The translations under genes and the position numbers were made by a program. Shown here piece by piece: positions 35,054 through 39,224 of a stretch of 64,000 nt of DNA. The stretch comes from Methylonatrum kenyense (lineage in GTDB: Bacteria; Pseudomonadota; Gammaproteobacteria; Nitrococcales; Aquisalimonadaceae). The DNA lies in NCBI RefSeq assembly GCF_023195885.1, contig NZ_JALPKO010000006.1, forward strand, positions 124,001 to 188,000, given 5' to 3'. Under the pieces are notes generated by a model that was not told where the DNA came from, made no database searches, and saw nothing but the letters and a program-made list of their open reading frames with translations. How positions within the stretch are numbered: the stretch's first letter is position 1; each line of letters begins with the position of its first letter.

Positions 35054-35920
35054 ATGCGCCGATTTCATCCCTACGCCTTGTTGTTGATCCTGCTGCTGCC
35101 CCTGCAGGCGCAGGCGGCAGGCCTGATTGGTGACCGTGACAATTTCCTGGCCTGTCGCGAAGGCGATGAAGCGCTGTGCGACCCCGGTCTGCTCTCGGAA
35201 GCACAGCGGGAGACCGTCGAGAAAGCGGCCCAGCGGCGCAACGTGCAGGCCTGTATCCGAGGCACTGATGCCTGCCGTCGTGATCGCCTGACGGAGTCTC
35301 AGCGCTACGAGGTCGACGAAGAGCGGTATTCCATCAATTACAGCCTCTGCCTTGCCGGCGACTCCGCCTGCCGTTGGGAACAGCTTTCCAGCGCGCAATA
35401 CCTGGAGGCCGAGGAGAGATCCGATAAACGCAACCTCGAATCCTGCATGGTCGGGGGACCCTGTGATTCCGATCGGCTCAGTGACCGGCAGCAGGCTGAA
35501 GTCGAGATCACCGTGCGCCAGCGCAATTTTCAGGACTGTGTGGCGCGTGCGCCGGAGTGTCAGCGAAGCGTGCTGACCGAGTCACAACGGAACGAGGTGG
35601 ATCGACGGCTGGCGGAACGCAATTTCAATGCCTGTCTGCGGGACGACGGACGTTGCGACTACGGCGCCCTGAGTGACGATCAGCGTGCAGCGGTGGATCG
35701 TGCCGAACGGCGCGCCGCCCAGCAGGCGGCCGCGCCACAGGTGGTGTACGTGCAACCAAGGCAACCGCGCCTGCGAACCCACACCTATGTTGGCGTCAAC
35801 GTCGGTCGCGGTTTCCGCCACCGCCGCGGCGTGACCACCGGATTCGGCATCGGCCGCAGCTTCGGTCACTCGCGGTTCCATCATGGTTGGCACGGACACT
35901 ACCACCCGTTCTACTGGTAA
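35054..35920 (+). CDS. Secreted protein with six Cys-pair repeats
   Basis: A 288-residue exported protein of no recognised family. A signal peptide (YALLLILLLPLQAQA) precedes six repeats of about 31-34 residues between about residues 28 and 222. Each follows the pattern RNxxxC, five to seven residues, C, then L(S/T)xxQ and a charged helix. For example NVQACIRGTDACRRDRLTES and NFNACLRDDGRCDYGALSDD. The even Cys spacing suggests one disulfide per repeat after periplasmic oxidation. The C-terminus is Pro/Arg- then His/Gly-rich (HHGWHGHYHPFYW) and may bind metal. The two flanking tRNA genes and noncoding debris suggest an accessory gene. Confidence 0.8.
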   Translation: MRRFHPYALLLILLLPLQAQAAGLIGDRDNFLACREGDEALCDPGLLSEAQRETVEKAAQRRNVQACIRGTDACRRDRLTESQRYEVDEERYSINYSLCLAGDSACRWEQLSSAQYLEAEERSDKRNLESCMVGGPCDSDRLSDRQQAEVEITVRQRNFQDCVARAPECQRSVLTESQRNEVDRRLAERNFNACLRDDGRCDYGALSDDQRAAVDRAERRAAQQAAAPQVVYVQPRQPRLRTHTYVGVNVGRGFRHRRGVTTGFGIGRSFGHSRFHHGWHGHYHPFYW

Positions 35921-35974: not shown

Positions 35975-36051
35975 GCGCCCGTAGCTCAGCTGGATAGAGT
36001 ACCTGGCTACGAACCAGGCGGTCGGAGGTTCGAATCCTTCCGGGCGCGCCA
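35975..36051 (+). tRNA. tRNA-Arg(ACG)
   Basis: A 77-base tRNA with acceptor GCGCCCG/CGGGCGC, discriminator G and encoded CCA. Anticodon stem CCTGG/CCAGG encloses the loop CTACGAA, with anticodon ACG at 36009-36011. The T-arm is GGAGGTTCGAATCCTTC. The A34 would be edited to inosine to read CGN codons. An insertion-sequence remnant abuts its 3' end. Confidence 0.97.
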
Positions 36052-36061
36052 TACGAAAGAA

Positions 36062-36360
36062 GGTCTGTACCGGACACATGGGTTACAGATCATACCGAGC
36101 ACATCGGTAACACTTTTGGCCCGAAGGGATTCTCGGCGGGTTCGACGCGATCCGCGTCCTCGTCGAAGAATCCCAGGTCATATTGCATGAAGCTGACGCG
36201 CCAGATCCTGTCAGCGACCTCCCGAACGCCCACGTGCTGTCCTGCGAATACGGTGCTCAGGCTGAGAACCCTTCCGTCCTGATCCGCGACAGACCACGTG
36301 CCCGTTACATCGTGATAACACGCTCCCATTTTGCGATACTGGCGCCTGTTAAGGGCGACC
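36062..36360 (-). pseudogene. Insertion-sequence remnant: transposase C-terminus and end
   Basis: On the minus strand the reading frame ending at 36090 encodes a typical C-terminal segment of integrase-core (DDE) transposases: GTWSVADQDGRVLSLSTVFA, then VREVADRIWRVSFMQYDLGF, ending NPFGPKVLPMCSV. Outside the stop are two imperfect direct repeats of about 20 bases, TGTTACCGATGTGCTCGGTA and TGTAACCCATGTGTCCGGTA, as at an IS end. The N-terminal and catalytic parts are missing, so it is inactive. IS3/IS481-type placement is a judgement from style. It lies next to the tRNA-Arg gene. Confidence 0.65.
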
Positions 36361-36575
36361 CCGACCGAAAGGCGGGCACGCAAAATCACCGGCCTAAAGA
36401 CCTTCGATTCTACGGCAGCGGGATTGCCGACAGGCGTTGCGGCGTACAAGGCCTGCCGTCAGTCCATCTCCCGTATCGAGTTCACAGGCCCTGGTTTGGC
36501 TCTCGGCGCTGTTTCTCGGGTCGGCCCAACCGTTCTCAGCTTGGGTCACGGATCCGACCGCCAGGGAGTAGCGCA
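36361..36575. other. Upstream region of the LOV protein gene
   Basis: About 215 bases between the IS remnant and the GGDEF/EAL gene. The plus frame is open through it but reads as non-protein-like sequence. No convincing sigma-70 promoter was found. The last bases carry the ribosome site AGGGAG. Confidence 0.4.
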
Positions 36576-39224
36576 TTGGCTGATGAAACCTCGTTGCTGG
36601 AAGCACAACAGACCGTCCATGAGCTGATTGCGGAACGGACACCTCTTCCGCAGATGCTGGACAGCATCGCAAACTGGATCGGAATTCTGCTCCCGCAGGC
36701 CACTGTCGCCTTCATGCGTTACGATGCCGACGCCCACGCGCTGAGCTTGATTCCGAGCGCTCGGTTCTCGCAAACCTACACGCAACTTCTTCAACAGGTG
36801 CCCGTCGGACCGTTTCGGTCAGCCTCCTTCGGTGCCGCGGCCCATGACCGTCACCTGGTGGTGACGGATGACATCGCAACAGATCCGCGCTGGCTGCCAT
36901 TTAGAGAAGGTGCGATGGCTGAGGGCTTTCGGTCCTGCTGGTCGAACCCGATTGTCGCACCGGACGGTGAATTGCTTGGGACCTTTGGCGCCTATTACGC
37001 AAGCCCGGCCTTGCCGACAAGTGCGGCAAAAAAGCGACTGAAACAGGCCTCCGCCCTGATTGGTCTGGCCCTGGTCCGCGACCGTGACAGTCAGCGTCAC
37101 CAGGAGGCCACCGAGTGGCATCACTCATTGTTCGTGAATCATCCGGAAGGCGTTTATGACCTCGACCTGCAGGGGCGCTTTCAGCGATGCAATGCCGCAT
37201 TGGAACGAATCACCGGCTACCGGGAAATCGAAATAATCGGCCGATATTTCAACGAGATTGTTGATCCGCGCTACCGGGAGATGACCCAGCGCTGCTTCGA
37301 TGCCGTGTGTCGAGGAGAGGCGCCGACCTATGAAACGCAGTGCACGCATGCCGACGGCCACAGCTATATCCTGGAGGTCACCAAATTTCCCGTCACCATC
37401 GAAGACAAGGTGGTCGGGGTATCCGGAATCTGCCGTGACGTGACCGAACGCATGCGTCGCAACGAAGAGCTGCGCATACTGAAACGCGGGATCGATACGA
37501 GTCCCAGTGGCATGCTACTTGTTGATGCGCGCGAACCAGATATGCCCATCGTTTACGCCAATCCTGCGTTTACACAGATCACGGGCTACGCCCAGCAAGA
37601 AATTCTTGGCCGGAACTGTCGCTTTCTGCAGGGACCGGATAGCGACCCGGACGTTATTCAAGGGATTCGTCGTGCTATTCGGGCATTTCATGATGCCAGC
37701 GTCGTTCTGCTCAACAACCGGAAGGACGGCACGACATTCTGGAATCACTTGACCATCAGTCCTGTTTTCGATGACGACGGAATATGCACCCACTTCATCG
37801 GTATTCAGCAGGACGTCACCCGGCAGAAGGAACAGGAAGCCCATATTGCCTATCAGGCGACTCATGATCTGCTGACAGGATTGCCCAATTTCTCGGCGTT
37901 CTACGACCGTGTGGAAGAGGCAATGGAGCGGTTTCGCCAAGGTGCCGGGGCGGCCGCGGTTCTATCCCTCAACCTGGATGGTTTCAAAGCCATCAATGAC
38001 GAGCTCGGCCACGACATAGGCAACGAGGTGCTTGCGGCCGTCGCACAACGGCTCGCGCCTTTGGCAGGACCCGATGACTTGGTGGCCCGTCTGGTGGGTG
38101 ATGAGTTCGCCATCCTTCTGGTCAGTGACGTTGACCAGGAGCGCGTTGTCCGGTTGGCCAAACGAATTCTCGCAACCTTGGGCGAGCCGACTGAAGTGGC
38201 GGGATCTCCGATTCACCTGAGTGCGAGTATTGGTATTGCTTGTACGCGTCATTCCATGAGTGACGACTATGAACTGATGCAATGTGCGGATCTCGCCCTG
38301 GAGCAAGCCAAACGCCAGGGACGCAATACCTGGCAGTGGTACCGGAGCAGCCGCTCAGAGGGTATCCGCGAGAGCGTAGCGATGCGTCACGACCTGCACG
38401 CCGCACTGCGGGAAGAGCAGTTCGAGTTGCACTACCAACCTGTGGTCGATGCCTTGAGTGGCCGAATCCGTAGCGTGGAAGCACTGGTCCGGTGGCATCA
38501 CCCAAAGCGTGGCGTGGTTTCGCCTGGCGTATTCATTCCCTTGGCGGAACGCACTGGTCAAATTGTCCCCCTGGGACGCTGGGTGCTACACCGGGCCTGC
38601 CGGGACATGATGGCGTTAAATTCCCGGCACGGGCGTACGCTGCCGGTGGCCGTGAACATCTCCTCACTTCAATTTGGTCGCGAGGGCTTCCTCGGGGATG
38701 TGCAGCGAACACTTGAGGAGACCGGCTTGTCCCCTCGCTTGCTGGAACTGGAAGTTACCGAGAGCGTCCTGATCGACGGGGCCGAGCCCGTTATCGACCT
38801 GATGAACGCACTTCGACGTATGGGGGTGAAAGCCGCTATCGATGACTTCGGAACCGGTTTCTCCAGCCTGAGCTACCTGAGGGACTTGCCCACTCACAAG
38901 GTGAAGCTCGATCAGAGTTTCGTCGCGAAGGCCTTAGATGATCGTCGTACGTCGGCAATCGTCCAGGGGGTTATCACCATGGCGCATCACATGGACATGG
39001 CCGTTGTCGCCGAGGGAATCGAAACCGATGAGGAATGCAACGATATGGTGCGACGGCAGTGTGACCTGCTGCAGGGTTATCTGTTTTCCCGCCCAGTGCC
39101 TTTAGGCGAGCTTGCTGGGTTGCCGGATGTCCTGCCTGTGACCCAATCCGCCCCGGTGTCACGTGGAAGGCATCCTCATGGTTCGCGAGGCATGGGGCAC
39201 ACCCACCAGGACCAATCGTACTAA
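36576..39224 (+). CDS. GAF-PAS-LOV-GGDEF-EAL cyclic-di-GMP signalling protein
   Basis: An 882-residue cytoplasmic protein with no membrane segment. Order: GAF (about 10-165), PAS (180-300), LOV-type PAS (305-425), GGDEF (430-590) and EAL (605-860). The LOV core has GRNCRFLQG at 345-353 with the adduct-forming Cys348, NNRKDG, FWNHL and FIGIQQDV, matching blue-light FMN photoreceptors. The GGDEF signature is VGDEF (507-511) and no RxxD inhibitory site is seen, so cyclase activity is doubtful. EAL (635-637), LELEVTES, IDDFGTGFSSLSYL, KLDQSF and VAEGIE are intact, favouring phosphodiesterase activity. TTG 36576 follows AGGGAG. The last residues read out of frame through another gene's relic. Confidence 0.9.
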   Translation: MADETSLLEAQQTVHELIAERTPLPQMLDSIANWIGILLPQATVAFMRYDADAHALSLIPSARFSQTYTQLLQQVPVGPFRSASFGAAAHDRHLVVTDDIATDPRWLPFREGAMAEGFRSCWSNPIVAPDGELLGTFGAYYASPALPTSAAKKRLKQASALIGLALVRDRDSQRHQEATEWHHSLFVNHPEGVYDLDLQGRFQRCNAALERITGYREIEIIGRYFNEIVDPRYREMTQRCFDAVCRGEAPTYETQCTHADGHSYILEVTKFPVTIEDKVVGVSGICRDVTERMRRNEELRILKRGIDTSPSGMLLVDAREPDMPIVYANPAFTQITGYAQQEILGRNCRFLQGPDSDPDVIQGIRRAIRAFHDASVVLLNNRKDGTTFWNHLTISPVFDDDGICTHFIGIQQDVTRQKEQEAHIAYQATHDLLTGLPNFSAFYDRVEEAMERFRQGAGAAAVLSLNLDGFKAINDELGHDIGNEVLAAVAQRLAPLAGPDDLVARLVGDEFAILLVSDVDQERVVRLAKRILATLGEPTEVAGSPIHLSASIGIACTRHSMSDDYELMQCADLALEQAKRQGRNTWQWYRSSRSEGIRESVAMRHDLHAALREEQFELHYQPVVDALSGRIRSVEALVRWHHPKRGVVSPGVFIPLAERTGQIVPLGRWVLHRACRDMMALNSRHGRTLPVAVNISSLQFGREGFLGDVQRTLEETGLSPRLLELEVTESVLIDGAEPVIDLMNALRRMGVKAAIDDFGTGFSSLSYLRDLPTHKVKLDQSFVAKALDDRRTSAIVQGVITMAHHMDMAVVAEGIETDEECNDMVRRQCDLLQGYLFSRPVPLGELAGLPDVLPVTQSAPVSRGRHPHGSRGMGHTHQDQSY

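Follow-up and report, generated by a model that had tools for sequence, protein, structure and literature searches.

The analysed window was a stretch of 64,000 nucleotides from Methylonatrum kenyense. An uninterrupted frame of 882 codons on its forward strand encodes a GAF-PAS-LOV-GGDEF-EAL protein (Table 1). The TTG start codon is preceded by AGGGAG at a distance of about 7 bases. The open frame reaches back beyond this TTG to position 36183, and a start at 36183 was considered and dropped. A start near 36576 is reasonable because no Pfam match was obtained in the stretch 36183-36575 and because the stop-to-stop frame of the ortholog L038, which aligns from residue 1, comprises only 859 aa. 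The order of domains proposed in an earlier note on this DNA was borne out by the order of the Pfam matches (GAF_2 24-166, PAS_4 190-292, PAS_9 312-415, GGDEF 428-584, EAL 606-840) and by PDB matches that ranked LOV proteins first.

Table 1. Features at the locus of the LOV gene (window positions; residue numbers refer to the 882-aa protein)
Feature	Position	Strand	Evidence
tRNA-Arg(ACG), edge of variable slot containing the gene	35975..36051	+	comparison of window with G001
119-aa frame, probable IS transposase C-terminal remnant	36090..36449	-	upstream of LOV gene; second copy in genome
GAF-PAS-LOV-GGDEF-EAL protein	36576..39224	+	882 aa, TTG start, open frame and Pfam
GAF domain, residues 24-166	36645..37073	+	Pfam GAF_2; AF2 model similar to many GAF structures
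First PAS domain, residues 190-292, not LOV	37143..37451	+	Pfam PAS_4; four weak PDB matches
LOV domain segment, residues 301-425, core 312-415	37476..37850	+	PDB LOV matches, ten of ten LOV residues
Cys348 codon, predicted FMN adduct cysteine	37617..37619	+	motif position, LOV residue list
21-residue linker LOV to GGDEF, D413 (DVT) to L433 (DLLT)	37812..37874	+	alignment; helix 415-429 in model
Degenerate GGDEF, residues 428-584, VGDEF 507-511, without RxxD I-site	37857..38327	+	Pfam, motif inspection
EAL phosphodiesterase domain, residues 606-840, nine checked catalytic positions intact	38391..39095	+	Pfam, alignment

In G001, a genome of the same genus, the interval from tRNA-Arg to the quinone oxidoreductase-like gene is occupied instead by one alpha/beta-hydrolase-like gene and one GGDEF gene, as read from sequence. 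The 119-aa frame on the reverse strand gave no Pfam match, and judged from its sequence it is probably the C-terminal remnant of an IS transposase. A second genomic copy of this frame was found (L193 1498-1908, reverse strand; 93% over 60 residues). The frame matches 51 plasmid records, mostly rhizobial, and no annotated feature lies under the eight listed. At 35054-35920 on the forward strand lies the frame of a 288-aa protein without a Pfam match, in which Cys-containing segments recur and the tail is rich in His; it occupies the same place in G001 (L082 207-1334) and is conserved by eye. The downstream genes were assigned by Pfam as zinc-type alcohol dehydrogenase/quinone-oxidoreductase-like, Abhydrolase_2, QueC, radical SAM, PTPS and transaldolase. 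They show no visible link to the LOV protein, and the possibility of a partner operon was dropped.

Near full-length orthologs with 56-65% identity were found in Marinobacter, Halomonas and Vreelandella (57-65% for L021-L038). The family and order of the host also contain Cys-LOV relatives at a greater distance (L003, 39%; L002, 48%). In three genomes of the same genus (one of them 86% complete; 15 of the candidate places scored per genome), no ortholog-level match was found, only paralog-level ones, with best E-values of 1.5e-112, 1.0e-115 and 5.0e-76. The GC3 of the LOV gene is 0.652, compared to 0.748-0.814 for seven other genes of the window. Acquisition of the gene from a Halomonas/Marinobacter-type source is probable, as suggested by the lack of an ortholog-level match among the places scored in the three same-genus genomes, the different content of the slot in G001, the lower GC3, and the adjacent probable IS remnant. 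The host genome encodes 15 EAL domains, and a search for BLUF in it gave 0 matches. It contains a further LOV with adduct Cys (L085, G000:C23:75936-76301; YQDCRFLQTGD) in a 176-aa frame; this LOV is 44% identical to that of the window and resembles a short LOV protein.

Residues 301-425 are, by sequence, a LOV domain. The four motifs named in the earlier note were found in the translated frame where they had been placed, i.e., GRNCRFLQG at 345-353 with Cys348, NNRKDG from 380, FWNHL from 388, and FIGIQQ from 407. Pfam by itself cannot tell LOV from other PAS domains and gave no discrimination here, assigning only PAS_9, a family that includes LOV (PMC8846402); phmmer against PDB ranked LOV proteins first. 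The top match of residues 301-425 was the histidine kinase 9vf7 (135.7 bits, E 6.2e-39), whose aligned stretch contains the same GRNCRFLQG, and the next matches were aureochromes, phototropin, bacterial blue-light photoreceptors and the LOV cyclase 8c05. The first PAS, used as internal control, yielded four weak matches of at most 27.7 bits, to PAS domains from other proteins. The LOV search pattern given in PMC4844311 matched the protein once, at 329-348, with Cys348 as final residue. All ten residues of the LOV signature list given in PMC4682037 are present, Cys348 among them, which agrees with the full set of FMN-contact residues claimed previously. The LOV assignment is based on the PDB matches with their PAS control, the published pattern and the ten-residue list. 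An ordinary PAS domain is ruled out by 136 versus 28 bits in PDB together with ten of ten LOV residues, and a chance motif by the E-value of 6e-39 against PDB.

The EAL domain scored 243 bits in Pfam, and its model was closest in fold to the EAL domain of MucR (Z 34.7, rmsd 1.4 over 247 residues). Nine positions, which we take to be catalytic (E635, L637, N694, E726, D756, D757, K777, E813 and Q833), are conserved in 113 of 116 aligned rows; in the other three (L048, L150, L167) the frame is truncated or changed ahead of the C-terminus. The VGDEF of the GGDEF domain retains D and E and fits neither GG(D/E)EF nor the widened (G/S/A)G(D/E)EF of PMC3974145. Of the 116 rows, 15 have Gly at the first position of this motif and 101 another residue, among them 36 with Val and 39 with Thr. 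The RxxD inhibitory site is replaced by GxxD at 498-501 and was found in 7 of 116 rows. Degeneration of this kind, with VGDEF and no I-site, was not mentioned in the earlier note and makes hydrolysis more likely than synthesis. Hydrolysis of c-di-GMP is the likely output, with GGDEF as a relay.

The LOV domain sits directly before GGDEF-EAL. In all but one of 116 rows, the linker between them measures 21 residues; the one that differs, L191, is without both PAS and LOV. PMC10396304 gives this length for the short-linker group of LOV cyclases and for two earlier constructs derived from LOV-GGDEF-EAL proteins; in the account given there, these constructs showed no light-regulated synthesis, and light control of EAL was judged plausible. 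The full-length AF2 model (pLDDT 84.9) placed helices between the modules at 149-188, 290-307 and 415-429; with a pTM of 0.39, the packing of modules cannot be read from it. The GAF model (pLDDT 92.8) has a generic GAF fold with mixed structural neighbours, including the cAMP GAF 5w10 and phytochromes. Assignment of the GAF to a known ligand type was dropped, since its sequence had no PDB match at E <= 0.1 and only the generic fold was recognized.

Light control of c-di-GMP output is the best reading of this arrangement, because the EAL site is complete, LOV is joined to the output by the 21-residue linker, and SL2 of Synechococcus elongatus offers a precedent. We propose, with a probability of about 0.7 for the whole, that the protein is a cytoplasmic, probably dimeric blue-light receptor phosphodiesterase modulated by GAF and PAS. 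The LOV domain would bind FMN and form a Cys348-FMN adduct in blue light, and Gln411 would read the protonation of the flavin. The signal would travel along helix 415-429, within the DVT-to-DLLT linker, into GGDEF-EAL. GGDEF would act mainly as a GTP-binding or dimer relay, and the EAL site would hydrolyse c-di-GMP, presumably more in light. The GAF and first PAS upstream may tune the same helix stack with other signals, so that integration of light with another signal through these two domains is plausible.

It is unlikely that light inhibits hydrolysis instead, or that it toggles a bifunctional enzyme between cyclase and phosphodiesterase. Such behaviour would agree with the retained D and E of VGDEF and with the activity of some first-position GGDEF variants: according to PMC3974145, A, G, H and M are active in VCA0965, most other substitutions being inactive, and S can be active in ECA3270; its authors warn that each enzyme may obey its own rules at this position. 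The LOV-GGDEF fragment of a LOV-GGDEF-EAL protein of Mesorhizobium loti is described in PMC9098866 as a blue-light-repressed cyclase, so output and sign may differ among proteins of this layout. However, Val is not among the residues tolerated in VCA0965 (PMC3974145), the I-site is missing, and D or E of the motif has been lost in three relatives (SGDGF, VGDKF, SGNEF) with EAL positions intact. Hydrolysis stimulated by light is the reading retained.

For the comparison of relatives, 133 translated loci, 115 of them distinct and drawn from a part of the genome matches, were used, with 116 aligned rows. A tree of 113 rows (without L048, L150 and L191) was built without the LOV columns by a quick method and has several long branches; the fork nearest the window gene was not starred (90 in this tree, 88/80 in a first tree of 34 rows). 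Genomes were searched with a LOV-bearing query at E <= 1e-200. LOV-less copies are under-counted, and paralogs make up 40-46% of the counts. Matches were obtained, paralogs included, in 22 of 124 genomes of the genus of L022 (Marinobacter; 7 candidates scored per genome), in 37 of 82 genomes of the genus of L038, and in 110 of 275 genomes of the family of L038 (3 candidates scored per genome).

By alignment coverage, GAF, PAS and LOV are all present in 93 of 113 tree rows. The LOV module occurs in 107 of them, Cys348 in 88 of these 107, Gln411 in 92, and both in 82. Cys348 is replaced in the remaining 19 LOV rows (8 Ser, 4 Trp, 2 Arg, 2 Tyr, 2 Leu, 1 Phe), which requires at least 7 changes on the 113-row tree. 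Any loss of light input requires at least 7 changes on the 34-row tree and 12 on the larger one. Module presence gave 6 parsimony changes on the 113-row tree, with L040 and L044 included, which the alignment scored as GAF-PAS without LOV; these two were dropped as clean LOV losses, their N-termini looking membrane-type by eye and not like GAF. Parsimony does not tell whether LOV was gained or lost. Two observations favour loss, namely the presence of LOV in outlying rows and the agreement between LOV distances and GGDEF-EAL distances (rho 0.65, 5778 non-independent pairs).

In L041, L042, L045, L047 and L048, the first PAS is present and LOV is absent. The first PAS of these five loci is 48-68% identical to that of five relatives, compared to at most 47% identity to LOV, and then over about 30 residues. 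An alignment step of exactly 375 nt at LOV was found in the pairs L035/L042, L033/L041, L034/L048 and L036/L047; L048 is frame-shifted and L047 also lacks most of the GAF. The genomes of L035 and L042 both bear the name Marinobacter persicus, and the 5 kb upstream of the two genes match at 79%, which indicates a single locus that has LOV in one genome and lacks it in the other. In the 34-row tree, L042 is sister to L035 (100/100) and L041 to the Cys-bearing L033 (100/99). The opposite arrangement, with LOV present and the first PAS absent, was found in L039, L151, L186, L187 and L190. Relatives without the Cys or the whole LOV show that the output, as predicted from sequence, can exist without light input.

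A clade of 7 rows from Halomonas and Vreelandella (L023, L027, L028, L031, L123, L132, L137) carries Ser in place of Cys348 and His in place of Gln411. Exchange of Gln for His abolished the light response of NmPAL, which PMC9098866 calls consistent with YF1. Relaxed selection on the Cys-less LOV is not apparent in this clade, with a median LOV/EAL ratio of 1.22 versus 1.3-1.8 in six Cys groups, and its conserved LOV fits a candidate light-independent flavin sensor. The ratio of the Trp/Arg set is 2.90, but on the tree a Cys row (L101) falls among its members; two further sets, Tyr/Phe (2.12 from 2 pairs) and Leu (1.20 from a single pair), are too small to be informative. L113, L115 and L116, paralogs from the genus Marinobacter with 43-44% identity, have Tyr or Phe at the adduct position and GKGYLVLFG-type loops, and form a Cys-less line of their own. 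A coupled loss of Cys348 and Gln411 was considered, since Gln is absent in 9 of 19 Cys-less rows and 6 of 88 Cys rows; on the tree, 7 independent pairs gave a median p of 0.5 in a sign test, which is not significant.

The persistence of relatives without Cys and the low ratio of the Ser clade would agree with a LOV domain whose main task in vivo is to sense flavin redox state or oxygen, light being secondary. A role of this kind has been proposed for the LOV-like PAS of RmcA, which has no Cys (PMC8846402), and Cys-less LOV domains are able to signal via flavin photoreduction (PMC4682037). For the window protein such a role is improbable, as it retains Cys348 and the full adduct set, and most LOV rows of the family keep both Cys and Gln. 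Still less probable is a vestigial light input, in which LOV is intact by descent and uncoupled from the output in this host. The signs of gene acquisition and the repeated loss of light input among relatives point in this direction, but all LOV signature residues and the linker are intact, and relative to the five best LOV matches the LOV is 66-71% identical and GGDEF-EAL 63-68%. A functional blue-light input continues to be favoured for the window protein.

For the family as a whole we suggest, as a tentative view with somewhat less than an even chance of being correct, that these halophilic or marine bacteria share a constant GGDEF-EAL core with GAF/PAS, in which LOV is a removable cassette and light sensing has been switched off repeatedly by three routes. 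By the first, the adduct Cys would have been replaced by Ser, Arg, Trp, Leu, Tyr or Phe. By the second, the whole LOV would be precisely absent between repeated DIT motifs, the 21-residue linker being unchanged. The third would be the Cys-to-Ser and Gln-to-His remake in the Halomonas/Vreelandella clade, which may have produced a light-independent flavin sensor. No description of repeated LOV loss in the Marinobacter/Halomonas family was found in a search of the open-access literature. If the cassette view is true, the family is a natural series for what light adds to a c-di-GMP enzyme. It offers matched natural pairs, namely L035 and L042, which differ at one locus in the presence of LOV, and orthologs that carry either Cys or Ser; such pairs allow a direct look at the coupling of light to c-di-GMP hydrolysis and at any sensing by a Cys-less LOV, and they also bear on the loss of a sensor cassette with the output unbroken.

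The window protein itself is an ordinary, clean candidate for a LOV phosphodiesterase. DosP of Escherichia coli, of the PAS-GGDEF-EAL type, is similar in having PAS modules ahead of GGDEF-EAL; it is not known to contain a GAF. The model of residues 180-856 compared to DosP chains gave Z 27.8-31.3 at an rmsd above 26 A, hence a match of single domains only. RmcA of Pseudomonas aeruginosa has a GGDEF-EAL layout. It is a phosphodiesterase with several PAS domains, the fourth of which is LOV-like and needed for light effects, whereas this PAS lacks the cysteine that the window protein has (PMC8846402). DosP (PdeO) differs in that it senses oxygen by a heme PAS and not by LOV (PMC8846402). MsLadC and the short-linker LadCs, LOV-GGDEF cyclases such as 8c05, have LOV coupled to GGDEF by a helical linker, of 21 residues in the short-linker group (PMC10396304), but make c-di-GMP, whereas the output of the window protein is a GGDEF-EAL with degenerate GGDEF. 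Its orthologs in Marinobacter, Halomonas and Vreelandella differ in some lines by replacement of Cys348 or by absence of LOV or of the first PAS. Natural LOV domains without Cys (about 70 entries, PMC4682037) and without Gln (about 350, PMC9098866) are on record. Of the 1390 bacterial LOV proteins surveyed in PMC4844311, about 18% carry GGDEF or GGDEF and EAL, and only two LOV phosphodiesterases are discussed in the available text of the review PMC8846402. The LOV-GGDEF-EAL protein SL2, whose phosphodiesterase activity is stimulated by blue light (PMC8846402), resembles the window protein, as far as its description goes, in having a LOV with adduct Cys followed by GGDEF and EAL; the window protein, known here from its sequence, differs by the additional GAF and PAS in front. 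LOV-GGDEF-EAL receptors are already a known class, represented by SL2, and the window protein is predicted to join it.
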